Shown: piece by piece, positions 47,758 through 64,000 of the stretch
Layout of the letters: every line of letters starts with the position of its first letter
Position numbering within the stretch: position 1 is the first letter of the stretch
NCBI GenBank assembly: GCA_011525685.1
Contig: WYBW01000022.1
Location: 62,001 to 126,000 of the forward strand
Direction of reading: 5' to 3'
DNA: 64,000 nt
DNA from: Verrucomicrobiia bacterium
GTDB taxonomy: Bacteria; Verrucomicrobiota; Verrucomicrobiia; Limisphaerales; JADLHS01
Notes under the pieces: model-generated
Databases searched by the model: none
What the model was told of the DNA's origin: nothing
What the model saw: only the letters and a program-made list of their open reading frames with translations
Made by a program: the position numbers and the translations under genes

Positions 47758-48159
47758 TCACTTCAACGGCGCGATTTGGTAAGCGCCTTTCTTCTCGTCG
47801 AGGAACTGACGAAGCTTCGGCGAGGCCGTGATGCCATCGTCGCCCGTCGCGCGATAACCAACCTTGGCGACAACCGCACCCGGCGTGCTCCACACACCCC
47901 GGCTGCCGTCAATGATCTGGCGCAGTTTCGGCGACGCGGTGATGCCGTCCGCTCCCGTGGCGCGATACCCAACCGAAACCACTTCGGTTGAAGGAGCGCC
48001 TTTCACCATCGGTTTGCCGCGCTCATTGAGGAACTGGCGCAGCTTCGGCGATGCGGCAATGCCATCATCACCCGCAGCGGTGTATTGGGCTTGGCTCTGG
48101 CTGGTCGAGGCGAGCAAAGCGACGGCGGCGGTCAGAATCAGAATCGAGTTCGTTTTCAT
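47758..48159 (-). CDS. Exported ASPK-repeat protein
   Basis: 133 residues. Signal peptide, then three repeats: GDDGIAASPKLRQFL, GADGITASPKLRQII and GDDGITASPKLRQFL, each preceded by a Y(T/R)A(A/T)G segment, ending YQIAPLK. The repeat also occurs once in 20829-21299, and the tail in 51096-51443. The GTGATT-N13-CGTAAT motif lies 48 bp upstream. Function unknown. Confidence 0.75.
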   Translation of the reverse strand: MKTNSILILTAAVALLASTSQSQAQYTAAGDDGIAASPKLRQFLNERGKPMVKGAPSTEVVSVGYRATGADGITASPKLRQIIDGSRGVWSTPGAVVAKVGYRATGDDGITASPKLRQFLDEKKGAYQIAPLK

Positions 48160-48551: not shown

Positions 48552-49148
48552 TCAGGCGTAGCTTTCCAAAAGCCAGCCGAGATTTTCGCGCAACAGTTTT
48601 CGCGCGCGATAAATCCGGGTTTCCACCGCCTTTGGCGTGCAATCAAGGATTGCGCCAATCTCCGCATGGGAAAGCTCCTCGTATTCCGCAAGGATGAGCG
48701 GCGTGCGGAGTTCTTCGGGCAGTTGACCCACGGCCTGGCGAACCGCTTCCGCTCGCTCTGCCCCTTGCAGCGACTCGCTTGGCGTCGGGTTGTTTTCCGG
48801 CATGCTCTCCCGAAAGCTTTCACCCGTTGTTTCGTTCTCCGCGTCGAGCGATACCTGCGGATGGCGCGTGCGATAGCGGTAACGACTTTTCACCAGATTC
48901 GTGGCGATGACGTAAAGCCAGGTCGAAAACTTATGGCTCGCGTCAAATTTCGCGCGGTTCTGATAGATGCGGACGAAGGTTTCTTGCGCCAGATCAGCGG
49001 CATCCTCCTCGTTCTGCAAACTGCGGACTAGATAATGGAACAGTTTCTCGGCGTGCCTTCCCATGAGTTCGTTCAACGCCGCGTCGTGCCCGGCGACCAG
49101 CCGCGCCATATCCTTCTGGTCCGGGTCGTCAACCGAGGCGGGTGTCAT
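48552..49148 (-). CDS. cnrH: ECF sigma factor, CnrH-like
   Basis: 198 residues from the ATG at 49148, which overlaps the CnrX-like stop (ATGA). Region 2 is 'LVRSLQNEEDAADLAQETFV' and 'FSTWLYVIATNLVKSRYR'; region 4 is 'LILAEYEELSHAEIGAILD' and 'KAVETRIYRARKLL'. The gene order Y-X-H (49975 down to 48552) matches cnrYXH of Cupriavidus. It probably activates metal-resistance genes when the sensor binds metal. The symbol is by synteny. Confidence 0.85.
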   Translation of the reverse strand: MTPASVDDPDQKDMARLVAGHDAALNELMGRHAEKLFHYLVRSLQNEEDAADLAQETFVRIYQNRAKFDASHKFSTWLYVIATNLVKSRYRYRTRHPQVSLDAENETTGESFRESMPENNPTPSESLQGAERAEAVRQAVGQLPEELRTPLILAEYEELSHAEIGAILDCTPKAVETRIYRARKLLRENLGWLLESYA

Positions 49149-49633
49149 GGCATGGCGGGCGGAGAGGCTGATTGCGTTCCGCCGGGCATCATCTTGCTCG
49201 GCTTCAAGGTTTCCTGTTGAACCCATTCGAGATAACGCCTGCCTTGCTCGGCGGGCATGGTCTGCGCGACCTTGTAGTAGTGATCGAGCATCGCGGTCTC
49301 ACATTCGGCGCGAATCTCGGCGGCTTGAGCGAGCGCCTGTTTGATTTCCGGGGTGATGACATTGGTGGCGGCGAGCAGCCTTTTGATTTCGGCGTTCTTC
49401 GCATCAATGGCGCGGCACATCTCATCGCACTTGGGTGCGTAGGCATTGTGCAATTCCACCACGCGGGTCAACTGCGCGTCGGTGAGTTGAAACTCCATTT
49501 GCAGCCAGGCCAATTCCGGGCGGTTGCTTCGTTCCACGGAACGCTCCGCAACGGTCGTGCCGAAGTAGATGCAAGCGTAAGCGCACACCGCCAAGGCCAG
49601 CCCGCCCAAGATGATGAGCCACGAACGTTTCAT
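49145..49633 (-). CDS. cnrX: CnrX-like periplasmic metal sensor
   Basis: 162 residues: signal-anchor (LIILGGLALAVCAYACIYFG), then the Spy/CpxP-like helices with 'MEFQLTDAQLTRVVELHNAY', CDEMCR, 'RAECETAMLDHYYKVAQTM' and 'EQGRRYLEWV'. His/Cys/Met positions are candidate ligands. Between the CnrY- and CnrH-like genes. Confidence 0.83.
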   Translation of the reverse strand: MKRSWLIILGGLALAVCAYACIYFGTTVAERSVERSNRPELAWLQMEFQLTDAQLTRVVELHNAYAPKCDEMCRAIDAKNAEIKRLLAATNVITPEIKQALAQAAEIRAECETAMLDHYYKVAQTMPAEQGRRYLEWVQQETLKPSKMMPGGTQSASPPAMP

Positions 49634-49975
49634 TCAATTGCGCGACGCTTGATAGGGGTCAATGGACTGGACGTAGAGCGCACGCATCTTGGATTCGGTC
49701 TGCGTGGTCTTGTCCTGCGCTTGCAAGTAGCCCGCTCCCAAACCGACAAAGAGGAGCACGGCTACATACACGGTGGCAAATGCCGGACGACGAAACACCG
49801 TTTCAATCCAGCGGGCAACAACAATCAAAGTGCTCTGTGGTTTTTGTGCCTCGGCCCGGTCAATTTCTTTCCAGACCCGCTCTTGAAAACGCGCCGGCAA
49901 GGTCGCCTCCACCTTCCACTGCTTGAGAAGTTCGTGCAGCGACTTATCGTCTTCGGATGAGCTGTTCGATTTCAT
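49634..49975 (-). CDS. cnrY: CnrY-like anti-sigma membrane protein
   Basis: 113 residues: a cytosolic part (LHELLKQWKVEATLPARFQE), one TM helix (FATVYVAVLLFVGLGAGYL), and a short periplasmic part ending in YVQSIDPYQASRN. First gene of the YXH set; the promoter motif B lies 67 bp upstream. It would sequester the sigma factor at the membrane. Confidence 0.78.
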   Translation of the reverse strand: MKSNSSSEDDKSLHELLKQWKVEATLPARFQERVWKEIDRAEAQKPQSTLIVVARWIETVFRRPAFATVYVAVLLFVGLGAGYLQAQDKTTQTESKMRALYVQSIDPYQASRN

Positions 49976-50041
49976 AGCCTGAACATGGCGACTGGCTCAA
50001 AGCCGCCGCTGTTAATACCAATTTTCTCATTCACTCTCTTT

Positions 50042-50066
50042 ATTACGCCGTCCCGGATTGAATCCC
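50042..50066 (-). promoter_or_regulatory. Island promoter motif, site B
   Basis: Minus strand TTGAGGGATT; GGGATT, 13 bp, CGTAAT, then AAAGAG. 67 bp before the CnrY-like start, consistent with autoregulation of the operon. Confidence 0.55.
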
Positions 50067-50281
50067 TCAAGAATTGGGAAGCCGTGAAAAAGTCGGACGA
50101 ATCGCGGTGGCATGCCACTATGAACACTCCCACTGGGTGGATTCGCTTTGACCGAGGGCAATGCAGGACTGTGCAACTCTCTTGTGGCGAAGGAAGATGG
50201 CGCAAGGGCCGCAGCAAATGAGGCCCAGGCATCGCTCCGGGCCTTCCTTGGAGGAGGGAACAGTTCATGCCGAAGGACATG

Positions 50282-50312
50282 AAAAAGCGGAAGGACAGTT
50301 GTCCTCCCGCTT
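50282..50312 (-). terminator. Rho-independent terminator after the 50333 gene
   Basis: On the minus strand an AGCGG-GAGGACA stem pairs with TGTCCTTCCGCT with one mismatch, followed by TTTTTC, about 20 bp after the stop of the zinc-ribbon gene. Confidence 0.6.
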
Positions 50313-50332
50313 GGCTATTTCAAAGCAGAAAT

Positions 50333-50788
50333 CTACTTTTGCTCCATTCCCGGCGTCGGCGCCGCCTTGTCTTTTTTCATTACGCAGCAAAAGGCGTCCT
50401 CGCTGCCGCATTTCTTGCAGACATGGACGATTTTATCAGTTTTGGCCTTGCCGTGGCCTTCGGTGACGAACTTGTGCTCGCAACCGGGGCATTCATGGCG
50501 CATCACAGACTTGGCATCGGGCACCGCGCCCGTCTTGGCGGGCGTCGGGACGACCGTCATCCAACTGTCCTTGCACTTGGGACAGGACATGACAACGGTG
50601 TCGCCCGGCTCGACGGCTTCCGCGTCAGCGACGGTTTTAATGGGCTTAAGCTGAATCAGCTTGGTGGCACCGCCCTTGGCCGTGCCATCGGCTGCAAGAA
50701 CTCCAATCGGCAGCCAGACTAGCGCGGCCAACGCAACTAAGGCGCAACAACGGATCATTTTGGTGGGGATTTGATTGATTCGTTTCAT
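50333..50788 (-). CDS. Exported zinc-ribbon protein ending GMEQK
   Basis: 151 residues, signal peptide 'VALAALVWLPIGVLA'. The mature start is DGTAKGGATKL (compare 21362-21667). Cys modules: CPKCKDSWMTVV, then HECPGC, GHGKAK, HVCKKCG and FCC, ending TPGMEQK. Third member of the zinc-ribbon set. Confidence 0.78.
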   Translation of the reverse strand: MKRINQIPTKMIRCCALVALAALVWLPIGVLAADGTAKGGATKLIQLKPIKTVADAEAVEPGDTVVMSCPKCKDSWMTVVPTPAKTGAVPDAKSVMRHECPGCEHKFVTEGHGKAKTDKIVHVCKKCGSEDAFCCVMKKDKAAPTPGMEQK

Positions 50789-51095: not shown

Positions 51096-51443
51096 TTACT
51101 TCAGTGCCTTGTTCCGCTTCTCAATCAGAGGCGCGATCTGATACTCCCAGCCACGGAGATCGCGATGCGGGCTCTTGGATGCAGCACCGAGGTAATTGCC
51201 GCTGACCAGATTGACGTCCAGAACCGGACCAGAAGCAACCATGCTGTGCTGCGTGGTGAAGATCCTCGTGGCCGCGCCGGCATACCAGCCGCTGACCAGA
51301 TTCGGCTCGTTATTGATGCCCTTTACATGGGTGATTTGGTTCGCTTGGGCGCGAGGTGACAGGAACACTTCAGCGGCCTGCACGCTGGAGGCGAGAGTGA
51401 AGATACCGGCAGCGGCGACTGCGAGGAGGATCATCTTTTTCAT
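51096..51443 (-). CDS. Exported small protein of the SPR/APL group
   Basis: 115 residues with a signal peptide ending 'SSVQAAE'. The mature part begins VFLSPRAQANQ and has two similar segments: 'NLVSGWYAGAATRIF' and 'NLVSGNYLGAASKSP', ending YQIAPLIEKRNKALK. The YQIAPL phrase matches 47758-48159. The promoter motif C is 57 bp upstream. No Cys. Function unknown. Confidence 0.7.
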   Translation of the reverse strand: MKKMILLAVAAAGIFTLASSVQAAEVFLSPRAQANQITHVKGINNEPNLVSGWYAGAATRIFTTQHSMVASGPVLDVNLVSGNYLGAASKSPHRDLRGWEYQIAPLIEKRNKALK

Positions 51444-52990: not shown

Positions 52991-55900
52991 ATGGACATCT
53001 TTGAAGTTCACCGTCGAATTATGGACGATTATGCGAGTTACATTCGCAGTTTCGTCTCCATTTCCGACGACGAAATGCGCGCAAGGGTCGAGCAGCATCT
53101 TGATGAAGGCCGATTGTGGCCAGAGCCGTTGCTGACGTTCAATCCGTCGTTCGCCAAAGTCGGTCGCATTGAGGAACTCGTGTCTTCGGGTCTCCTCGCC
53201 GCGCCGTTGGGTGACGCTTTTCGCGGTTACGAACTTTTCGAGCACCAGTTGGAGGCAATCAAGCTCGGTGCAGCCGGGAATGATTTCGTTGTCACGTCGG
53301 GCACGGGTTCAGGGAAATCGCTCACCTACATCGCCGCCATTTTCGACCACCTGTTCAAGTCTGGAAACCCCATGCCGAACGGAGTGACGGCGGTGATCGT
53401 TTATCCCTTGAACGCGCTGGTGAATTCGCAAGAGGAAGAACTCCGGCGTTACGCTGAGAATTATCAGCAATCTCGCGGAGAGAAATTTCCTATTCGTTTC
53501 GGGAAATTCACCGGTCAAGAGGACAAGACCCGCCGTGAAGAACTGGAGGCTGAACCGCCCCATATCCTGCTCACGAACTACATGATGCTGGAGTTGCTGC
53601 TTACGCGTGGCGGGCAACGCACTTTGCGCGAGGCGATTTACGATCAGATTCGTTTTTTGGTTTTTGATGAACTGCACACGTATCGCGGGCGGCAAGGCGC
53701 GGATGTGGGTCTTCTCATCCGCCGAATTCGCGCGCGAGCAAAACATCCAGTTGTCTGCATCGGCACTTCCGCAACGATGATTTCAGTCGGCTCGATTGCG
53801 GAACAAAAGCAACAGGTGGCAAAGGTCGCTGAGCAACTTTTCGGAAAGCCGTTCAAACCCGAAGCCGTCGTTCGTGAAACGCTGATGGCGAAATTTCCCG
53901 GTGCTCCCAAACCTGATACGTTGAAATCGGCAGTCGCCTCGCCGGTGAACATGAATGCCCCGGAAGCAGCGTTGCTGGCGCACCCGACAGCAGCGTGGCT
54001 CGAAGCCTGCATTGCTTTGGCGGAGCGCGAGGGGCAACTGGTTCGCAACAAACCGTTGCGCTTTTCGGAGGTGGCGAGTTCGCTTGCCGAGCAAACCGGA
54101 CATCCGCAATCGAAGTGTGAGCAACACTTGCGCGAAGTCATGCTCTGGCTGGGAGGAACGAACAAACGCCTGCTCGATGCCGGCAAGCGTTACACTCATC
54201 TTCCGTTCAAGCTTCATCAGTTTTTTTCTCAAACGGGAGCGATTTACGTTACGCTCGACCAGGGCGCGCAACGTCACATCACGTTACAGGCCGGCTACCA
54301 CGTTCCGGGCGAGCCGGACCGACCCTTGTTTGCGGCGGTCTTCAGCCGTTACTCCGGCGAAACCCTGCTCTGCGTCTTGAAAGACCCGGCGGGTCGCAAG
54401 TTGATGCCTCGCGAATTTTATCCCTCGCAAGATGAGGAGGACGACGTAACACGGGGTTATCTCATTCCCAATGCCGATTTGTGGAATCCCGAAACTGACC
54501 TTGAACTCCTGCCTGACTCCTGGCTGGACGTAAGTTCCTCCGGGCAGGTTCGCGTTCAGAAGAAATACAAGGCCCGGATGCCTCAACGCATTTTCTACGA
54601 TACGCATGGCAATTGCTCCGATGAACCACGAGACGGTTGGATGCAAGGTTGGTTCATGACCGCGCCATTGCTGTTCGATCCGACATCGGGCCTGATGCCT
54701 GACCGTCAGACTAAGGATTCCACAAAACTCAGTCAGCTTGGCACTGAAGGCCGCAGCACGGCGACGAGCATCTCCGCGTTCGCGATCCTCACCCGGATGG
54801 CGGAACACGGCTATCGCCTGCGCGACCAAAAGCTTCTCAGCTTCACGGACAATCGGCAGGATGCCGCGCTGCAAGCCGGTCACTTCAACGATTTCATGGA
54901 TGTCGTCCGTCTCCGCTCGGCCATTCGCAAAGCCGTCGAAACTTCGGACGGCAAACAGCTTCGACTTACCACACTGGGTCAGGCCGTCCGCGTCGCGAGC
55001 GGACTGCAATTTGGCGATTACGCGACCGGTGGTTCAGACCTGCCGGAATTTCGGAAGCGCATTTACGAGGAAACGCTGGAGAGTTATTTCGCCTTTCGCT
55101 CGATTCACGACCTCCGCCGTGGCTGGCGCGTGGTGTTGCCAAATCTTGAACAATGCGCGCTGCTCGAAATTGACTACGACCATCTCGACGAGCTTGCCGC
55201 GATGGACAAGCTCTGGACGGATGTTCCGCTGTTCAACCAAATCAGCGCGAGCGACCGCTGCGCGTTGATCCGCGTTACCCTGGATTTCTTCCGGCACGAA
55301 TTTGCGCTGCACAGCGAGTCCTATCTGACGGAAGCAAAGATCAAGGAACATGCGACGGCGTTCCGTGAACGGCTTCGCGCCCCGTGGCGGTATGAGGACG
55401 AAGACGACATCCCAACGCCCGCTTCAATCCGCACCGAGTCACTCACGCGATACAGCCGTCGCGAAACCCGGAGCATCGGGCCGCAGAGCGGCTATGGAAG
55501 GTTTCTGCGTCGGTTTGCCCAGGAGAAATTGAGCCGCACCCTGAAGGCATCTGACTATCAAGACTTCATTGAAAAGCTGCTGGCCGCGCTCGAAAATAAA
55601 GCCGGTTACTTGACGAGCCAGGAAGCGAAGAATCGTGAGGGCAAACCAACGCGGCTTTACCAACTGAAACTCACGGAAGTCATCTGGAAGCCGGGCGACG
55701 GCCAGACCGTTCGCGCCGACGCGGTGAAGCTTCGCGCTTACAAAAAGCTCGAACTTCGCCCGAATTTGTTTTTCCAAGGTGTCTATCGCCGCGACTACGG
55801 CGTCGGCAAGCTGCTGCTCGCAGCCGATCATACCGGGCAACTCAACTACAAGGACAAGCAGGATCGCGAAGACCGTTTTCGAGCGGAATGGAAAACGGAC

Positions 55901-58153
55901 GATGGACGTGACGACGAAAGTGAAATCCGCCGCCGCTCCATTAGTTCGCTGTTCTGTTCGCCGACAATGGAATTGGGGATAGACATTGGTGGCTTGAGCG
56001 TTGTCCACATGCGGAATGCGCCGCCGAATCCGGCGAACTATGCGCAACGCAGCGGCCGTGCGGGTCGCAGTGGACAGCCCGCGCTCGTCTTCACTTTCTG
56101 CGGTTCACAGTCAAACCACGACCGCCATTACTTCAACAACCAACCTGATCTCGTGGCTGGGCAGGTTGTGCCCCCGCGCCTTGACTTGTTGAATGAAGAA
56201 TTGCTGCGCACGCATCTGCACGCCATTTTTCTATCGGAGATTGGTTTGCCCGGCTTGAAGGATTCCGTTCCCGACCTGCTCGACCTGAATCAATCCGCGT
56301 TGCCGCTGCGCGAGGATGTTGCCGGGGCGTTGAACTTGAGTCCGGCGGAAGCCGCCCGCGTGCGCAGCGCATTTGAGCGGGCGATTGCCGACTTCCGCCA
56401 CAAACTCACCGGCGAATCAGCCGCCTGGTTCTCGGCAGGCTGGATTGATGCGGAACTCGGGAGTCTCAAGGAGCGGCTCGATGAGTCGCTCGAACGCTGG
56501 CGCATCCTTTACCGCAGCGCGCAAGCACAACTCACCTTGGCGTCGCAGAAAATTAACAGCGGTCTGTATCCCGCGAGCAGTCCCGAATTCAAAGACGCGC
56601 AACTCGAACAACGACTTGCCCAGCGCCAGCTTGACCTGCTCCGCAACGAAACGACTGTTGGTCAGTTGTCCGAATTCTACGTCTATCGCTATCTTGCCGC
56701 TGAAGGTTTTCTGCCCGGCTACAATTTCACCCGCCTGCCGCTCCGCGTCATGTTGCCGGGCAGTGACGCCAGCGTGGAATTTATTTCCCGCCCACGCCAC
56801 ATTGCGTTGCGCGAGTTCGGGCCGAACAACGTCATTTACCACAAGGGGCAGAAATACGAGATCACCCAACTGCTCGGCGACCCTCCCGGCAATCGCTTCG
56901 AGAACGCGGTGGTGAGTCTCAAGCCCGGTTATTTCCTGCGCGGGGACGACGGCAAGCGCGACCGCTGCCCGTTCTCCGGCGAGGATCTGACGAGTCAGGC
57001 GAACAAGGAACATCTTCATTACCTGCTGCAACTCGGCGAAACCCGCGCGACGCAGCGCTCACGAATTACCTGTGAGGAGGAGGAGCGTGTCACCAAGGGT
57101 TACGACATCAGCACCTACTTCACCCTCGATGACCTGACGCAGCTGGGGGCGACGGGTTTGGTGAAGGCCAGTGGCGAAGTTTTGCTTCGGTTGCGTTACC
57201 TGCCGACTGCACGGCTCGTTTGGGTGAATCGGAAATGGCGGATTGCCCGCGAGGACAAGAATGGTTTCGCGATTGATGTGAAAACCGGCGCGTTTGTCAG
57301 CGACCGCCGCCGCGCGGAACTCACCGACAAGGGCGAGACCACCGACCACATTCGCGACGTGATGTTCTACACGACCAACATTGCCGACGCGCTTTACGTC
57401 GAGCCTGTGCCGGCGCTTGGCCTGGATGAAGACGGCGTGCTCACGCTTCAGTTCGCGCTCAAGCGTGCGATGGAGCGAGTCTTCCAGGTCGAACCCGCCG
57501 AACTCGGCGTCACCGCGATTGGCGACCCCGCGCATCCGAACATTCTCTATTACGAAGCTGCCGAAGGAACGCTCGGCATCTTGAGCCAGTTGGCAGAACA
57601 AACCGGCCCGTGGCGGCGCGTTGTCGAGGAAGCCATCAAGGTCTGTCAGTTTGACGCCGATCCCTCATTGAGTCCGGCCTCCTATGACAATCTGCTCGAT
57701 TACTACAATCAGCGTCATCATCCGCGCCTTGACCGCTGGCTCATCAAAGCCGCGCTCGAAAAGCTCGCCGCGTGTTCTTTTGAATCCGTGAAAAGTCCGC
57801 CCTACGCGGACTATGAGGACCACTATCAGCGTCTCTCCCGGCAGATTGACCCGACTTCCTCTACCGAACGGAAGTTTCTCGATCATCTCCACACGGAAGG
57901 TCTGCGCCTGCCGGATGCCGCTCAAAAAACCTTTGACGGCATTTACGTCCAGCCCGATTTCTTTTACGAACCGAACGTGTGGGTCTTCTGCGACGGCACG
58001 CCGCACGATGATCCCACAGTCCGCGCCGACGATGAGGCAAAGCGTCAGGCCATCATCAACGCCGGGGGCGAGGTCATCGTCTGGTATTACCGCGACGAAC
58101 TCGGCACATTTGTCAAAAAGCGCGGCGACATTTTCCGAAAGGTTCGCGAATAG
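52991..58153 (+). CDS. Giant DEAD/DEAH helicase with DUF1998-like region and nuclease-like tail
   Basis: 1720 residues from the ATG at 52991; the frame is open to a GTG at 52910, but 'MDIFEVHRRIMDDY' looks like the true start. Walker A TSGTGSGKS is at 102-110, DELH at about 226-229, GTSAT at about 258. A long insertion with 'LPFKLHQFFSQTGAIY' follows, then helicase C: SFTDNRQDAAL (617), GIDIGG (about 997) and QRSGRAGRSG (about 1019). A zinc/DUF1998-like part has 'CPFSGEDL' (1326) and 'CEEEERVTKGYDI' (1361). The tail (1655-1720) has PDFFYEPNVWVFCDGTPHDD and 'VIVWYYRDEL', a Vsr/DUF559-like PD-(D/E)XK layout. It is similar in plan to MrfA, DruE and a DrmA-DrmB fusion. Confidence 0.85.
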   Translation: MDIFEVHRRIMDDYASYIRSFVSISDDEMRARVEQHLDEGRLWPEPLLTFNPSFAKVGRIEELVSSGLLAAPLGDAFRGYELFEHQLEAIKLGAAGNDFVVTSGTGSGKSLTYIAAIFDHLFKSGNPMPNGVTAVIVYPLNALVNSQEEELRRYAENYQQSRGEKFPIRFGKFTGQEDKTRREELEAEPPHILLTNYMMLELLLTRGGQRTLREAIYDQIRFLVFDELHTYRGRQGADVGLLIRRIRARAKHPVVCIGTSATMISVGSIAEQKQQVAKVAEQLFGKPFKPEAVVRETLMAKFPGAPKPDTLKSAVASPVNMNAPEAALLAHPTAAWLEACIALAEREGQLVRNKPLRFSEVASSLAEQTGHPQSKCEQHLREVMLWLGGTNKRLLDAGKRYTHLPFKLHQFFSQTGAIYVTLDQGAQRHITLQAGYHVPGEPDRPLFAAVFSRYSGETLLCVLKDPAGRKLMPREFYPSQDEEDDVTRGYLIPNADLWNPETDLELLPDSWLDVSSSGQVRVQKKYKARMPQRIFYDTHGNCSDEPRDGWMQGWFMTAPLLFDPTSGLMPDRQTKDSTKLSQLGTEGRSTATSISAFAILTRMAEHGYRLRDQKLLSFTDNRQDAALQAGHFNDFMDVVRLRSAIRKAVETSDGKQLRLTTLGQAVRVASGLQFGDYATGGSDLPEFRKRIYEETLESYFAFRSIHDLRRGWRVVLPNLEQCALLEIDYDHLDELAAMDKLWTDVPLFNQISASDRCALIRVTLDFFRHEFALHSESYLTEAKIKEHATAFRERLRAPWRYEDEDDIPTPASIRTESLTRYSRRETRSIGPQSGYGRFLRRFAQEKLSRTLKASDYQDFIEKLLAALENKAGYLTSQEAKNREGKPTRLYQLKLTEVIWKPGDGQTVRADAVKLRAYKKLELRPNLFFQGVYRRDYGVGKLLLAADHTGQLNYKDKQDREDRFRAEWKTDDGRDDESEIRRRSISSLFCSPTMELGIDIGGLSVVHMRNAPPNPANYAQRSGRAGRSGQPALVFTFCGSQSNHDRHYFNNQPDLVAGQVVPPRLDLLNEELLRTHLHAIFLSEIGLPGLKDSVPDLLDLNQSALPLREDVAGALNLSPAEAARVRSAFERAIADFRHKLTGESAAWFSAGWIDAELGSLKERLDESLERWRILYRSAQAQLTLASQKINSGLYPASSPEFKDAQLEQRLAQRQLDLLRNETTVGQLSEFYVYRYLAAEGFLPGYNFTRLPLRVMLPGSDASVEFISRPRHIALREFGPNNVIYHKGQKYEITQLLGDPPGNRFENAVVSLKPGYFLRGDDGKRDRCPFSGEDLTSQANKEHLHYLLQLGETRATQRSRITCEEEERVTKGYDISTYFTLDDLTQLGATGLVKASGEVLLRLRYLPTARLVWVNRKWRIAREDKNGFAIDVKTGAFVSDRRRAELTDKGETTDHIRDVMFYTTNIADALYVEPVPALGLDEDGVLTLQFALKRAMERVFQVEPAELGVTAIGDPAHPNILYYEAAEGTLGILSQLAEQTGPWRRVVEEAIKVCQFDADPSLSPASYDNLLDYYNQRHHPRLDRWLIKAALEKLAACSFESVKSPPYADYEDHYQRLSRQIDPTSSTERKFLDHLHTEGLRLPDAAQKTFDGIYVQPDFFYEPNVWVFCDGTPHDDPTVRADDEAKRQAIINAGGEVIVWYYRDELGTFVKKRGDIFRKVRE

Positions 58154-58163
58154 AATTCCCTGA

Positions 58164-61025
58164 ATGCCCTCGACCCTCAAATCTCCCGGTCGTCTCGTCA
58201 GCTTGCGCGGACGCGAATGGGTTGTGCTGCCGCCTGACGACCCGGATGTCCTGCTACTCAAACCGCTCGGCGGTTCGGACGAGGAAATTACCGGCATCTA
58301 TCAGCCCCTTGGCTTTGCCGAAGATGAGCCAACCGAAGCAATTTTTCCGAATCCCAAAAAGGAAGACCTCGGCGCATTTTCATCCGCGCGTCTGTTGCTC
58401 GAATCCTCGCGTCTCGCTTTCCGCAATGGCGCTGGCCCGTTCCGCAGCCTGGCGAAACTGTCTTTCCGCCCGCGCGCCTACCAGATAGTTCCCCTCATCA
58501 TGGCCTTGCGGCACGAGCCGGTTCGTTTGCTCGTGGCTGACGACGTAGGCGTCGGCAAAACGATTGAAGCCTTGCTGGTCGTCCGCGAACTCCTCGAACG
58601 CCGGGTCATCAAGCGTTTCGCCGTGCTCTGCCTGCCGCATTTGTGCGACCAGTGGCAGGAGGAAATCCGCGCCAAGATTGGCATCGAAGCGGTGGTCATC
58701 CGTTCCAACACCCAGGCCCGTCTTGACCGCGAGATTCACGGTGATGCCAGTGTGTTCCAACACTTCCCGTTTCAAGTGTTGAGCATTGATTACATCAAGA
58801 GCGACACGCGCCGCGATGTGTTCGTGAGTCAATGCCCGGAACTCGTCATCGTGGATGAGGCGCACACTTGCGCCCGTCCGAGTGGCGCAAGTCCCGGCCA
58901 ACAGCAACGCCATGACCTCCTCCGGCGAATTGCCGAGAAGGATGAACAACACCTCGTGCTGCTCACGGCCACGCCGCACAGCGGCAAGCCGGATGAGTTT
59001 CAATCGCTCCTTGGTTTGATCCACCGCGACTTCGCCGCGCTTGATCTTCCATCCGCAGGCGCGGAAATGCGAAAGCGACTGGCGAAGCATTTCATTCAGC
59101 GACGCCGTGGCGATGTTTTGAAATGGATGGGCGAAGATACCCCTTTCGCCAAGCGCGAGGCCGGGGAGATTTCCTACGAACTTGGGCCGTCCTACGCCGT
59201 GTTCTTTGACCAGGTGTTGGACTTCGCGCGGAAAATCGTGTCCGCACAATCCGGCCCTGAGCGCGAGCAGCGCGTCCACTACTGGACGGCTCTCGGCCTG
59301 TTGCGTGGCATCATGTCCAGTCCGGCGGCAGGGGTGGAGATGCTGCGAAATCGCTTGGAAGCTCCCGCAGTGGAAGCTGAGGGCGGCGAGTTGAAGCAGA
59401 ATCCAGTTCACGATTCATCGGATGGTTTCCTGCTGGATGTGACACCAAGTCAGAGCGTCGGCCAGGTAGCCTGGAGCGACCCGGAGAAACGCCAGCTTGC
59501 AAACTTCGCGCGCCAGCTTGAATCCCTCTCCGGTGCAAAGCACGACGGCAAGCTCGAAGCCGCTACCAAGACGCTCGCGGAATGGCTGCGCGACGGCTTG
59601 CAGCCCGTCGTCTTCTGTCGCTATCTCGCCACGGCGCGCTACGTCGGCGAACAGCTACGGTCAGTGCTCGCGTCGAAGTTCAAGGATTTGAAGATCGAGG
59701 TGGTGACGAGCGAAGACCCCGACGATGTTCGTCGCCAACGCGTCACCGATCTCGGCAAAGCCTCGCGTCGCATCCTTGTCGCGACGGACTGCCTTTCGGA
59801 AGGCATCAACCTGCAAGATTCATTTACCGCCGTCCTGCATTACGATCTGCCGTGGAATCCCAATCGCCTCGAACAGCGCGAAGGCCGCGTTGACCGTTTC
59901 GGCCAGACGGCGGAGCAAGTGAAAGCTTACCTGCTGTTTGGTCGCGACAATCCCGTGGACGGGCTCGTCCTCGGCGTCATTCTGGAAAAGGTCCGTCAGA
60001 TTCGTCGTGACCGGGGTATCACCGTTCCGTTCCCCGAAGACAGCAGCACTGTGCTGGACACGGTGGCGAAAGCACTCCTGTTCAATCCCGACCGCTGCGT
60101 CAAAGCCCGTTCTGACAAAAACCAACTCAAGCTCGAACTCGACGATTTCGTGGAAGCCCGCGAAGCTGAAATCCGCATCACCCACAAAATTGAGGAAGCC
60201 GCGAAACGCGAGGAGGAGACACGCTCCATCTTTGCGCATCACGCCATAAAAGCCGACGAACTTGAAGTTGATTTGCGCGAAGCAGATGCCGCCATTGGCG
60301 ACGTGGCTGCCGTCGAACGCTTCGTCACCGGCACGTTGACCGAACTGCTCGGCGCACAAATCGACCGGACGAAATCGGATTGGCGGTTGCACACCGGCAA
60401 TCTCCCCGCCTCCCTCCGCGCGCATCTGCCCGATGAGGCTGTTCTCGACGTGAGTTTCCGCTCACCCACGCCCAAGAAACACCTTTACCTCGGACGCAAT
60501 CATCCGTTCGTCGAGGCGCTTTGCCAATACGTGATGGCGCACGCGCTGAGTCGGCAGGCGCGCACGGGTGAGGTTCACGCCGCCCGCGCCGCCGTCATGC
60601 GCTCGAAGGAAGTGTCCGCCAAAACCACGTTGTTGCTGTTCCGCTGTCGCAACGTCATCGGTGAAAGGAATGGCCCGGCCCGCATCGTCGCGGAAGAAAT
60701 GCTGGTGTGGGGTTATCGCGGCTCGCCCAACGATGGGAACTTCCTCCCCAACGACGAGGCCGTTGCCCTCCTGCACCAGGCCCGGCCCGCCGGTGACATC
60801 ACGACCCAATCGCGCGAAAATTTTTTCGAGAACGAACTGAAACTGATCCGCCAGCTTCGCCCGCAATTCGACGCCGTGGCCGAGGAACGGAACAAGCATC
60901 TGGTCGAGGCCCACGAACGTTTCAGCAAATTCTTCCGCGCGGGCCGTTACGAAGTCGTCTATCCCGTGCTGCCGATGGATGTTCTCGGCCTCTACATCTT
61001 GCTGCCTGAATCTCAGAAATTCTGA
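58164..61025 (+). CDS. SNF2-family helicase, DrmD-like
   Basis: 953 residues, 10 bp after the giant helicase. Walker A is DDVGVGKT (126-133), DEAH at 231-234, LLTATPHSG at 266-274, helicase C has 'TDCLSEGINLQD' (about 540) and 'REGRVDRFGQ' (about 572-581). The N-terminus 'GRLVSLRGREWVVLPPD' and the long helical C-terminus resemble DrmD of class 1 DISARM and related SNF2 helicases. It would translocate on double-stranded DNA. The DrmD assignment is by resemblance only. Confidence 0.85.
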   Translation: MPSTLKSPGRLVSLRGREWVVLPPDDPDVLLLKPLGGSDEEITGIYQPLGFAEDEPTEAIFPNPKKEDLGAFSSARLLLESSRLAFRNGAGPFRSLAKLSFRPRAYQIVPLIMALRHEPVRLLVADDVGVGKTIEALLVVRELLERRVIKRFAVLCLPHLCDQWQEEIRAKIGIEAVVIRSNTQARLDREIHGDASVFQHFPFQVLSIDYIKSDTRRDVFVSQCPELVIVDEAHTCARPSGASPGQQQRHDLLRRIAEKDEQHLVLLTATPHSGKPDEFQSLLGLIHRDFAALDLPSAGAEMRKRLAKHFIQRRRGDVLKWMGEDTPFAKREAGEISYELGPSYAVFFDQVLDFARKIVSAQSGPEREQRVHYWTALGLLRGIMSSPAAGVEMLRNRLEAPAVEAEGGELKQNPVHDSSDGFLLDVTPSQSVGQVAWSDPEKRQLANFARQLESLSGAKHDGKLEAATKTLAEWLRDGLQPVVFCRYLATARYVGEQLRSVLASKFKDLKIEVVTSEDPDDVRRQRVTDLGKASRRILVATDCLSEGINLQDSFTAVLHYDLPWNPNRLEQREGRVDRFGQTAEQVKAYLLFGRDNPVDGLVLGVILEKVRQIRRDRGITVPFPEDSSTVLDTVAKALLFNPDRCVKARSDKNQLKLELDDFVEAREAEIRITHKIEEAAKREEETRSIFAHHAIKADELEVDLREADAAIGDVAAVERFVTGTLTELLGAQIDRTKSDWRLHTGNLPASLRAHLPDEAVLDVSFRSPTPKKHLYLGRNHPFVEALCQYVMAHALSRQARTGEVHAARAAVMRSKEVSAKTTLLLFRCRNVIGERNGPARIVAEEMLVWGYRGSPNDGNFLPNDEAVALLHQARPAGDITTQSRENFFENELKLIRQLRPQFDAVAEERNKHLVEAHERFSKFFRAGRYEVVYPVLPMDVLGLYILLPESQKF

Positions 61026-61029
61026 TGCC

Positions 61030-62133
61030 ATGTCCAACAAGCTTGCTTTGACCAAATCCACGCCGCAGCCAGCCGGGCTTTTGACGGATGTGCGCGAGTT
61101 GATTCTCTCCGCGCGTCAATCCGTGTCGCGCGGCGTGAATGCCGCGCTGGTCATGCTCTACTGGCAGGTCGGCCAGCGGCTGCGCACTGAAGTTTTGAAG
61201 CAGGAACGCGCGGAATACGGCAAAGAGATTCTTTCGACACTGTCGAAAGAATTGGAGGCGGAATTTGGGCGTGGATTTTCCTGGCCGAATCTCTCGCGGA
61301 TGATGGCCCTGGCGGAAGCATTTCCCGACCGCCGGATTGTTGCGACATTGTCGAAAGCATTGGGTTGGTCGCATTTCGTCGAATTGCTTCCGCTCAAGAA
61401 ACACTTGCAGCGCGACTTCTACGCGGAGATGTGCCGCATCGAGCGGTGGAGCGTGCGGACCTTGCGAAAAAAGATTGGCGGGATGCTTTACGAGCGCACC
61501 GCCCTGTCGAAAAAGCCTGACAAGCTCGCAGAACTGGAACTTCAAAAGTTGCGTGACGAAGACAAGCTCACGCCCGACCTGATCTTCCGCGACCCTTACT
61601 TGCTCGATTTCCTTGGCCTCAAAGGCGCGTATTCGGAAAAGGACTTGGAGACGGCCATCCTGCGCGAACTCGAACAGTTCCTCGTCGAATTGGGCAGCGA
61701 CTTTGCCTTCGTCGCCCGTCAGAAACGAATCGTCGTGGACGGCGAGGACTTTTATCTCGACCTCCTGTTCTACCATCGGCGGTTGCGGCGGCTCGTGGTC
61801 ATTGACTTGAAACTGGAAAAGTTCGCGCCCAGCGATGTCGGGCAGATGGAATTCTACCTGCGCTGGCTAAAAAAGCACGAGATGCGGCCCGGTGAGAATG
61901 AACCGTTGGGATTGATTCTGTGCGCCGAGAAATCAGATGAGCGCATCGAGCTGTTTGAACTCGCGAAGCGCGGCATCCGCGTCGGGGAATATCTTACCGA
62001 GTTACCGCCCAAGAAACAGTTGGCTCAGAGACTTCATGACGCCGTTCAATTGGCTCGTGCCCGTCTCGGCGAAGGAGTCGAGTCCGCCAAAGGACTGCCC
62101 ACGGAAAAGCCACGCCGCCGCAAGAAAGCATGA
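61030..62133 (+). CDS. DUF1016 (YhcG-like) PD-(D/E)XK nuclease
   Basis: 367 residues from the ATG at 61030, 4 bp after the SNF2 stop. The N-terminal domain is 'VRELILSARQSVSRGVNAAL' with 'LYWQVGQRLRTEVL'. The C-terminal nuclease domain has 'DFYLDLLFYHRRLRRLVVID', with D244, then D259 and K261, as the PD-(D/E)XK pattern. The family often occurs with restriction-modification genes. It ends in a basic tail (RRRKKA). Confidence 0.9.
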   Translation: MSNKLALTKSTPQPAGLLTDVRELILSARQSVSRGVNAALVMLYWQVGQRLRTEVLKQERAEYGKEILSTLSKELEAEFGRGFSWPNLSRMMALAEAFPDRRIVATLSKALGWSHFVELLPLKKHLQRDFYAEMCRIERWSVRTLRKKIGGMLYERTALSKKPDKLAELELQKLRDEDKLTPDLIFRDPYLLDFLGLKGAYSEKDLETAILRELEQFLVELGSDFAFVARQKRIVVDGEDFYLDLLFYHRRLRRLVVIDLKLEKFAPSDVGQMEFYLRWLKKHEMRPGENEPLGLILCAEKSDERIELFELAKRGIRVGEYLTELPPKKQLAQRLHDAVQLARARLGEGVESAKGLPTEKPRRRKKA

Positions 62134-64000
62134 CCTTCCCCTCCATCCGCATTGAAGGTGCGATTCTGTCCGGTGATCTTCTCGCCAAACTCGACAAAGG
62201 CGATTTCACCGGCCAGCGGCCTGTTGATTTCGGCTTCGATTCGCAGCCAAAGTTGAAGGAAGAAGTTGTCCGCGCCTGGACGGCGGCACAGGCGTTTTAC
62301 ACCGCGTTTCAACACAAGCTCGAAGGCGTGAAGGAAGGGAATGCCGCCACGTCCGAGACGCGCAATCAATGGATGATTCCGCTGCTCGGTTTGCTTGGAT
62401 ACGCCGAACTGGAATTCCAGTCCCAATCTGAACTCGTCGGCGACAAGCCGTTCCGCCTGTCGCACCAACTGCGAAGTCACGCCGGTTTCCGCGTTCACAT
62501 TGTTGGTGCGCGCGAATCACTCGACAAGAAACCCACGACCGGCCCGCGCGTCAGTCCGCACGCGCACTTGCAGGAATATCTCAACCTCACGGAGCATCTT
62601 TACGGCCTCGTCACGAACGGAAAACTCCTGCGCCTGCTCCGCGACTCCACGCGGCTCATCAAGCTCTCCTACGTTGAGTTCGATCTCGACCGGATGTTCA
62701 GCGAAGAACTGTTCGCCGACTTCGCGGTTCTTTATCGGCTGCTGCACGTCACACGTCTGCCGCGCTCGCCGGAGAAGTCCGCCGAGTCGTTGCTCGAACG
62801 CTATCATCAGGACGCGCTCGAATCCGGCGCGCGCATCCGCGACGGTTTGAGCTTCGCGGTTGAGCAGGTCATTCAGGAACTTGGCTCGGGCTTCCTGGCG
62901 CGAAACGAAAGCCTCCAAACCGCTGTCGCCAGCAACTCCGTCAGCGCCCGCGAACTGCATCATGCGCTGCTCCGGTTGATTTACCGTCTGCTCCTGATGA
63001 TGGTCGCGGAGGAACGCGGACTTCTGTTCACTGACGCTGCCACGCTGCGTCAACGAAAACTCTACCTCGACCATTACAGCATCAATCGCCTACGACGGCT
63101 CGCAGAGCGACGCGCGCTGGCGGATTCGACCAAGCACGATCTCTGGCGCGGACTGCGGAGCACGTTCCGACTTTTTGAAACTGACGGTCCTGGCGCACCG
63201 CTGGGACTGACCGGCCTGGGCGGGCAACTGTTCTCCGCGTCTGCCCTCGGCCCGCTGCAATCAGCCGAACTCGACAACGGCACGTTGCTCTCCGCGCTGG
63301 CCAAGCTCTCGCTCTTTCGCCAGCCGGACACCGGCCAGCTTTCGCGCGTGAACTACGGGGCGCTCGCCACGGAAGAATTTGGCTCGGTGTATGAGCGCCT
63401 GCTGGAACTCCATCCGGTCATCAATCCGGCCGTTGGAAATCTCCCGCCCACGTTCACTTTCAAGCAGGCCGCCGGCAATGAACGCAAGACGAGTGGCAGC
63501 TACTACACGCCTTCCAGCCTTGTCGAATGTCTGCTCGATTCTGCGCTCGATCCGGTGCTCGAAGACCGCCTCAAGAATTTCGCCAAGCTCGGCTACAAGT
63601 CCGCCGACGAAGCCGTGCTCGCGCTCAAGGTCTGCGACCCCGCTTGCGGCAGCGGCCATTTCCTCATCGCCGCCGCGCAACGCATTGCCCGCCGTCTCGC
63701 GTTGCTCCGCTCCAAAGGTGACGAGCCGAGCGTGAGCGAACTTCGCCACACTCTTCGCGAAGTCATCAGCCATTGCATCTACGGCGTGGACATCAACCCC
63801 ATGTCCGTCGAGTTGTGCAAAGTCGGTCTCTGGCTCGAAGCGATGGAGGCGGGCAAACCGCTTTCCTTTCTCGACCATCACATCCGCTGCGGCAACAGCC
63901 TGCTCGGTGCGACGCCTGTGCTCATCGCCGAAGGCATTCCCGACGACGCCTTCACCCCCATCGAGGGCGACGACAAGAAAGCCTGTGCTGCGCTGAAGAA
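62130..64000 (+). CDS. Eco57I-class DNA methyltransferase, truncated by the window edge
   Basis: At least 623 residues, open at the right edge. The ATG overlaps the DUF1016 stop (ATGA). After an N-terminal domain (ETRNQWMIPLLGLLGYAELE) come 'SGSYYTPSSLVECLL' (about 456), motif I 'DPACGSGHF' (503-511) and 'YGVDINPMSVELCKVGLWL' (about 551), typical of N6-adenine methyltransferases of type IIG/Eco57I and DrmMI-like proteins. The NPPY catalytic motif must lie beyond the window. Confidence 0.88.
   Translation, partial: MTFPSIRIEGAILSGDLLAKLDKGDFTGQRPVDFGFDSQPKLKEEVVRAWTAAQAFYTAFQHKLEGVKEGNAATSETRNQWMIPLLGLLGYAELEFQSQSELVGDKPFRLSHQLRSHAGFRVHIVGARESLDKKPTTGPRVSPHAHLQEYLNLTEHLYGLVTNGKLLRLLRDSTRLIKLSYVEFDLDRMFSEELFADFAVLYRLLHVTRLPRSPEKSAESLLERYHQDALESGARIRDGLSFAVEQVIQELGSGFLARNESLQTAVASNSVSARELHHALLRLIYRLLLMMVAEERGLLFTDAATLRQRKLYLDHYSINRLRRLAERRALADSTKHDLWRGLRSTFRLFETDGPGAPLGLTGLGGQLFSASALGPLQSAELDNGTLLSALAKLSLFRQPDTGQLSRVNYGALATEEFGSVYERLLELHPVINPAVGNLPPTFTFKQAAGNERKTSGSYYTPSSLVECLLDSALDPVLEDRLKNFAKLGYKSADEAVLALKVCDPACGSGHFLIAAAQRIARRLALLRSKGDEPSVSELRHTLREVISHCIYGVDINPMSVELCKVGLWLEAMEAGKPLSFLDHHIRCGNSLLGATPVLIAEGIPDDAFTPIEGDDKKACAALK

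Follow-up and report, generated by a model that had tools for sequence, protein, structure and literature searches.

A Probable ARMADA Type I Defense Operon in Verrucomicrobiia With a Cargo Gene and a Methyltransferase-Linked SMC-Like ATPase

Organization of the Locus

The 64,000-nucleotide stretch (positions 62001-126000) of contig WYBW01000022.1 from a Verrucomicrobiia bacterium with a 6.7-Mb genome (here called the window) ends within an operon of five genes, A to E, whose core is probably an ARMADA type I system, a defense system named in 2025 (Bell et al., 2025, PMC12458937, main text). Gene A (52991..58153, plus strand) encodes a YprA/DruE-family SF2 helicase of 1,720 aa that falls in a zinc-less subclade of ARMADA I helicases, and its C-terminus forms a Vsr-like PD-(D/E)XK nuclease domain (57848..58150, plus strand), seen in an alignment of 70 homologues. 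Gene B (58164..61025, plus strand) encodes a BrxHII/DrmD/DpdE-like SNF2 helicase of 953 aa. It is followed by gene C (61030..62133, plus strand, with an alternative upstream ATG at 60979), which encodes a DUF1016/YhcG PD-(D/E)XK nuclease of 367 aa and occupies a cargo slot between B and D. Gene D, a PglX/DrmMI/type IIG-like adenine methyltransferase gene, begins at 62130 on the plus strand and reaches the window end at 64000.

Beyond the window, coordinates are given as the position in the extending sequence L002 plus 50000. Gene D continues for 2,884 bp past the window end, to extended position 66884 (L002:12130-16884), and the whole protein has 1,584 aa, of which the last ~190 (extended 66312-66884) form a putative docking-type domain. 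Gene E (extended 66893-68854; L002:16893-18854) lies entirely outside the window, starts 8 bp after gene D, and encodes a DUF2326/LmuB-like SMC/Rad50 ATPase of 653 aa, counted from the ATG that matches its homologues. A convergent gene on the opposite strand closes the operon after E.

An initial annotation of the window had described genes A to D as four tightly packed plus-strand genes and had noted that the cut right end might hide more. An open reading frame (ORF) check reproduced the spacing exactly, with an A-B gap of 10 bp, a B-C gap of 4 bp, and a C-D overlap of 4 bp; none of the five genes contains an internal stop. Helicase, methyltransferase, and nuclease motifs were likewise found in the window proteins, and the extension supplied both the remainder of D and the fifth gene. 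Gene E, invisible within the window, is the most unusual part of the operon. A scan for promoters and terminators gave no signals above chance level.

The Two Helicases

The family evidence for gene A is strongest for DruE. The DruE profiles of PADLOC match best (DruE3, 1.4e-74), and DrmA is far weaker (3e-10). Pfam recognizes DEAD/Helicase_C, with a weak MZB/DUF1998 match (5e-4) that lies below the Pfam cut-off, and phmmer against the PDB retrieves the Druantia helicase 9tu7 (8e-43) and MrfA/YprA 6znp (1e-17). A Walker A motif is found at aa 104 and a DELH motif at aa 226. For gene B, the PADLOC DpdE model matches over the full length (1.1e-182), ahead of DrmD (3.5e-83) and BrxHI/BrxHII (3.4e-53); RapA is matched in the PDB, and Walker motifs are present. 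These profile matches bear out the earlier view of a defense-type operon related to both DISARM and Druantia, in which one giant protein covers the DrmA/DrmB or DruE role and a DrmD-like protein follows.

Many CxxC zinc-binding modules are stressed for defense YprA helicases in the main text of Bell et al. (2025), where the four-cysteine cluster of DUF1998 is given as characteristic of the YprA family and as lost in Dpd (PMC12458937). Gene A has no CxxC motif at all. When the pattern C..C was counted in 76 helicase proteins, the distribution was bimodal: 44 proteins have 0-1 such motifs, and the rest, including all references, have 5-9. In a tree of the same proteins, these 44 make up exactly one clade (support 100), with the window protein inside it. 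By this count, a subclade of ARMADA I helicases that includes the window locus has lost its CxxC zinc motifs.

Assignment of the Core to ARMADA Type I

As set out in the main text of Bell et al. (2025), ARMADA type I consists of a YprA-family helicase with a C-terminal Vsr-like nuclease, a BrxHII-like helicase, and a PglX-like methyltransferase, in that order, while in type II the gene order is reversed and a GajB-like gene carrying a RelE-like domain is present (PMC12458937). The type I helicases are further described there as having a BrxA-like helical insert after RecA1 and a MarR-like domain in RecA2. The window locus matches type I in content, in the order of A, B, and D, and in its nuclease. 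It has no GajB-like/RelE gene, since the operon stops after E, whereas the type II reference (L132, a plasmid copy) has one; ARMADA II was not found at two guessed positions in E. coli ATCC 8739. In the tree of 76 helicases, the window protein groups with loci of type I order (support 100), with E. coli ArmC (type II) and DruE III outside. As this tree is unrooted, has long reference branches, and includes no published type I representative, it supports the type I placement rather than proving it.

Conservation of the neighborhood, which the initial annotation had put forward as a check, is extensive. The loci compared here are the best matches of B (the 80 best from 85,000 species genomes), so that frequencies among them cannot be read as population estimates. 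In essentially all sampled loci of sufficient length, the helicase, the SNF2 helicase, and the methyltransferase occur together, and among the 80 best B homologues the A-B-D set keeps the same order wherever the contig is long enough, except in cyanobacteria, where B-D precedes A, as also given in the main text of PMC12458937. The core is spread over about 80 sampled loci from many phyla, plasmids included, and A-type homologues occur in 20 of 289 sampled genomes of the host phylum. The gene set is far beyond chance.

The window core differs from published ARMADA I in lacking the CxxC zinc motifs, including the DUF1998 cysteine cluster, which are given there as common traits and do not define the type, and in two additions: the DUF1016 gene between B and D, and the extra C-terminal domain of D followed by the SMC-like ATPase. 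That the core is an ARMADA type I system of the zinc-less YprA subclade bearing these two add-ons is, taken as a whole, a reading in which we have good though not full confidence. The zinc-less subclade, the B-D cargo slot, and the downstream DUF2326 ATPase module go beyond the published main text, in which DUF1016, DUF2326, SMC, and Lamassu do not occur; the supplements were outside that search. A literature search on DUF2326 found no paper on the association of gene E, and a prior listing in the supplements of PMC12458937 or in Krishnan et al. (2020) is possible.

Other named systems share single components with the locus. DISARM class 1 has DrmD-like and DrmMI-like proteins and a YprA-family helicase, but the helicase of the window is nearer DruE than DrmA, and the locus has no separate DrmB (DUF1998) or DrmC (phospholipase-D) genes; with these defining genes missing, an assignment to DISARM was rejected. 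The DruE-type YprA helicase is shared with Druantia, but neither DruH nor other partners stand among the neighbors in the window, L002, or L003, and DruE III lies outside the ARMADA I group of the tree. A Druantia assignment was rejected on the missing partner genes beside A. Dpd is also disfavored, though B matches DpdE best: no genes for 7-deazaguanine synthesis and insertion are apparent among the neighboring ORFs, the part of the genome that was searched.

Two plasmid loci with ARMADA I genes stand apart. In plasmid MP1 of Deinococcus radiodurans R1 (L126, 157173-169643), the ARMADA I methyltransferase is broken into several ORFs beside ISDra3, and the system is therefore probably inactive in this much-used strain. 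On Nocardioides pNOCA01 (L140), DISARM, ARMADA I, and McrBC-type genes adjoin on one plasmid.

The DUF1016 Gene and the Cargo Slot

Both Pfam domains of a DUF1016 nuclease match gene C (DUF1016_N, 9e-45; YhcG_C, 4e-49), in agreement with the initial annotation. For the comparison of loci, a slot was scored as occupied when at least one same-strand ORF of 110 aa or more lay between the two neighbors. The B-D junction is filled in 27 of 82 loci and the A-B junction in 1 of 79 (p = 2e-8, a value that is too small because the sampled loci are related and not independent). In the remaining 55 of 82 loci the B-D slot is empty. DUF1016 fills it in three loci only: the window, L060 (Opitutia bacterium UBA4506), and L108 (Prevotella). 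Elsewhere Pfam identifies Schlafen AlbA_2 (in a cluster of seven loci) and PDDEXK_13 (in two), and further contents are AbiEii with DUF6577, Fic, GmrSD_N, IVP proteins, and unknowns; a contig-edge locus (L031) has DUF3800 after B. Since DUF1016 occurs in few loci and the slot is empty or otherwise filled in the others, DUF1016 is an optional cargo, one option among many.

Comparable back-up nuclease effectors have been catalogued for BREX (Rakesh and Krishnan, 2026, PMC12839542), where Schlafen, PD-(D/E)XK, and GmrSD/HNH proteins are likewise inserted in a methyltransferase-based operon. The present case differs in that the host system is ARMADA I, that the insertions are limited to the B-D junction, and that DUF1016 is included. 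Most likely, gene C is an optional effector or a back-up. It is also conceivable that DUF1016 and the other slot genes are selfish, addictive passengers, toxin-like and kept beside methyltransferases, with no part in defense. Several slot families are indeed of toxin-antitoxin type (AbiEii with DUF6577, Fic), and so large a share of empty slots would suit passengers. However, the other contents are restriction-type nucleases and Schlafen, the kinds reported as BREX back-up effectors, and the insertions keep to one exact slot rather than falling at random; we regard a passenger role as somewhat unlikely.

A Thermus plasmid locus (L133, pTthSNM1-7b) is ARMADA II-like and has an NYN-domain gene between its BrxHII-like helicase and its methyltransferase. 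From this locus, a cargo slot may exist in ARMADA type II too.

The Nuclease of the Core

The initial annotation had gene C take the place of the phospholipase-type nuclease of DISARM. This does not hold, as gene A has its own intact Vsr-like motifs (SSTE, PDFFY, CDGTPHD, and D..KR in the alignment of 70 homologues, the Vsr-like assignment being by motif and not from a solved structure), and the slot of gene C is empty in two thirds of related loci. The motifs are intact in L060 and L108 as well. With intact motifs in all three DUF1016 loci, DUF1016 is not standing in for a lost nuclease.

Where the Vsr-like domain has decayed, another gene appears. Degenerate motifs are found in one branch (L037-L043, L136-L138, L141, L198-L200, and L202), and of the 17 loci scored as Vsr-degenerate, 13 have an HNH_2 gene closing the operon, compared with none of 60 with intact motifs. 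Among the four exceptions, L042 lies at a contig edge, L054 is masked over the motif, L101 has a partial helicase ORF, and L040 is a clear exception. This apparent exchange of Vsr for HNH_2 suggests that A has to work with a nuclease.

These results also bear on the model of the initial annotation as a whole, an unnamed hybrid of DISARM and Druantia that has the DUF1016 nuclease for its essential effector, with no described system having this set and order. In its favor, the best PADLOC hits are scattered over DruE, DpdE/DrmD, PDC-S02, DrmMI, and LmuB. The claim of novelty, on the other hand, fails for genes 1, 2, and 4 (A, B, and D), because in gene content, order, and Vsr domain the window core matches ARMADA I as published (PMC12458937, main text), and the core is thus not an unnamed hybrid. 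An essential role for DUF1016 is further opposed by its absence from nearly all related loci, which have unrelated cargo or nothing instead, and by the fact that a truly degenerate Vsr is replaced by HNH_2 at the operon end, not by DUF1016. The hybrid model is already largely refuted and has next to no credibility left.

The Methyltransferase Tail and the ATPase

Gene D matches the PADLOC profiles for DrmMI (6e-79), type IIG (5e-51), and PglX (9e-14), and carries the motifs DPACGSG and NPPW; its Eco57I match (8e-18) agrees with the Eco57I-class methyltransferase of the earlier annotation. Gene E matches PADLOC LmuB (2e-12) and, just under the cut-off, DUF2326 (1.5e-6). A sequence profile of E against the PDB gave coiled-coil noise only. 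For an AlphaFold model of the L045 homologue, which is 75% identical to E (predicted local distance difference test score, pLDDT, of 79), a fold search matched YydD, several LmuB, and Rad50, and E is accordingly predicted to share the fold of Lamassu/DdmABC LmuB and of YydD. The Walker B motif of E reads HDSPREAD, with a serine at the position of the glutamate in hydrolyzing ABC ATPases (D-S instead of D-E). Given this serine and the glutamate-to-glutamine change reported for LmuB (PMC10586767), slow ATP hydrolysis by E is plausible.

The presence of E is coupled to an extension of D. In the first set of loci, E follows D in 14, and the D tail runs 130-212 aa beyond the common end in 13 of 13 testable cases; a comparable tail occurs in only a few of the ~53 loci lacking E. 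Iterative searches with the last 190 residues of D lead to the proteins encoded immediately before E in other systems; among all collected ORFs such docking-domain searches reach almost nothing else, the notable exception being the long-tailed D of L033. Among complete methyltransferases of scored loci, the docking profile matches 19 of 22 from loci with E and 0 of 64 from loci without it. Most of the former helped to build the profile; the plasmid loci L198, L199, L200, and L202 did not, and all four match. Furthermore, L049 and L085, from different taxa, share 90-92% DNA identity in A and B and 85% in the first part of D, but L085 lacks E and carries 2.1 kb of Schlafen/IVP cargo placed precisely at the B-D junction, while L049 has no cargo, and its D has the tail with E next. 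This contrast indicates that cargo and E are gained and lost separately from the core.

The same pair of loci bears on whether two independent systems are simply stacked, namely ARMADA I (A, B, and D) and a degenerate Lamassu/ABC-3C-like ATPase E that shares the operon while its effector is unlinked or missing. E is related to LmuB, and Lamassu effectors are variable (PMC10586767), which would fit such stacking. Against this, no LmuA or LmuC gene stands beside E at the window locus, so that the LmuB-like protein is alone, unlike in Lamassu; extension and E are present or absent together in L049 and L085; the docking profile is restricted as described above; and in all loci of the phylum survey that could be interpreted, E lies behind a subunit for recognition or restriction that bears the extra domain. 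Stacking is unlikely in our judgment, and coupling of E to the tail of D is preferred.

Several points weigh against the reading of the locus as ARMADA I with a docked ATPase, in addition to the relatedness of the sampled loci mentioned above. Three methyltransferases of loci with E (L028, L038, and L063) have the extension but do not match the docking profile. The docking domain has no matches in Pfam or PDB profile searches, its AlphaFold model is poor (pLDDT 46), and the fold search with that model came back empty. Physical contact between D and E is implied by linkage only. For ARMADA type I in general, the literature yielded no experiment on any system; the tested ARMADA is type II, for which alone phage protection is demonstrated (PMC12458937, main text).

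At L033 (11476-19593), the methyltransferase has a tail of 418 aa, and the ATPase behind it is a different one, of SMC/AAA_13 type; docking may follow the same principle there with this other partner.

The ATPase Module in Other Restriction-Type Systems

Outside ARMADA I, E is found in systems of several kinds. Two DISARM loci by PADLOC contain it: L196 reads DrmD, DrmMI, E, DrmA, DrmB, and L197 reads DrmMI, E. In the type III restriction loci L192-L194 and in the viral contig L151, the docking domain is on the Res subunit. In a type I restriction locus (L191), E accompanies an HsdS of 614 aa whose tail runs past the HsdS profile and in which the docking domain is recognized weakly, and this HsdS probably carries the domain-plus-ATPase pair as well. 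The pair of docking domain and E behaves as a portable module in ARMADA I, DISARM, and type III restriction. Docking would be a point shared with Lamassu, where such a role has been proposed for the C-terminal domain of LmuA (PMC10586767). Unlike in Lamassu, E is tied to the C-terminal end of a methyltransferase, HsdS, or Res protein.

E is annotated as a chromosome segregation SMC protein in several plasmids and has a predicted Rad50-like fold, which might point to a replication or repair accessory of the host element, unrelated to immunity. Yet wherever its host in the phylum survey can be assigned, E belongs to an operon of restriction or defense type (type I, type III, DISARM, and ARMADA), and a housekeeping role of this sort is very unlikely. 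A bolder reading, at somewhat less than even chances, is that E and its docking domain form a portable licensing module. It would have been grafted on the subunits for DNA recognition or restriction in ARMADA I, DISARM, and type III systems at the least, and probably in type I, and would make the methylation-based choice between self and non-self depend on a further cue, DNA ends or abnormal structure, which an SMC-like clamp would detect.

Proposed Mechanism

According to the main text of Bell et al. (2025), ARMADA II requires both helicases, the methyltransferase, and a fourth protein, and protects without killing the cell (PMC12458937). DruE III is a helicase-nuclease and loads onto DNA that has 3' single-stranded stretches. 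For the window locus we infer a comparable course. D would provide the self mark, and the SNF2-like motor B and the YprA helicase A would load on unmarked invading DNA. A would then move along DNA with 3' single-stranded parts, where its Vsr-like domain would cut, giving a direct, non-suicidal defense with C as an optional second effector. The extra C-terminal domain of D may dock E. Sensing of DNA ends or hairpins has been proposed for Lamassu (PMC10586767), and E, bound to the D tail, most likely serves to sense DNA ends or abnormal structures and to license the methyltransferase-centered complex.

If the E module is such a sensor, it would link restriction-type DNA recognition with structure sensing of the SMC type, branches of immunity that are as a rule considered separately. 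The docking domain, which Pfam does not contain, offers a sequence handle for locating the module in other systems. For ARMADA type I, the analysis adds a large branch without zinc motifs and shows a modular architecture in which three parts can be exchanged: the cargo gene, the tail nuclease (Vsr, or HNH in trans in another branch), and the SMC-like ATPase with its docking domain.

Neighboring Genes in the Window

Upstream of the operon, two small related proteins, putatively secreted, are encoded on the minus strand at window positions 47758-48159 and 51096-51443. The protein at 47758-48159 contains three repeats of the type YRATGxDGITASPKLRQ. The two genes flank sigma-factor-like and other ORFs at 48552-50788.

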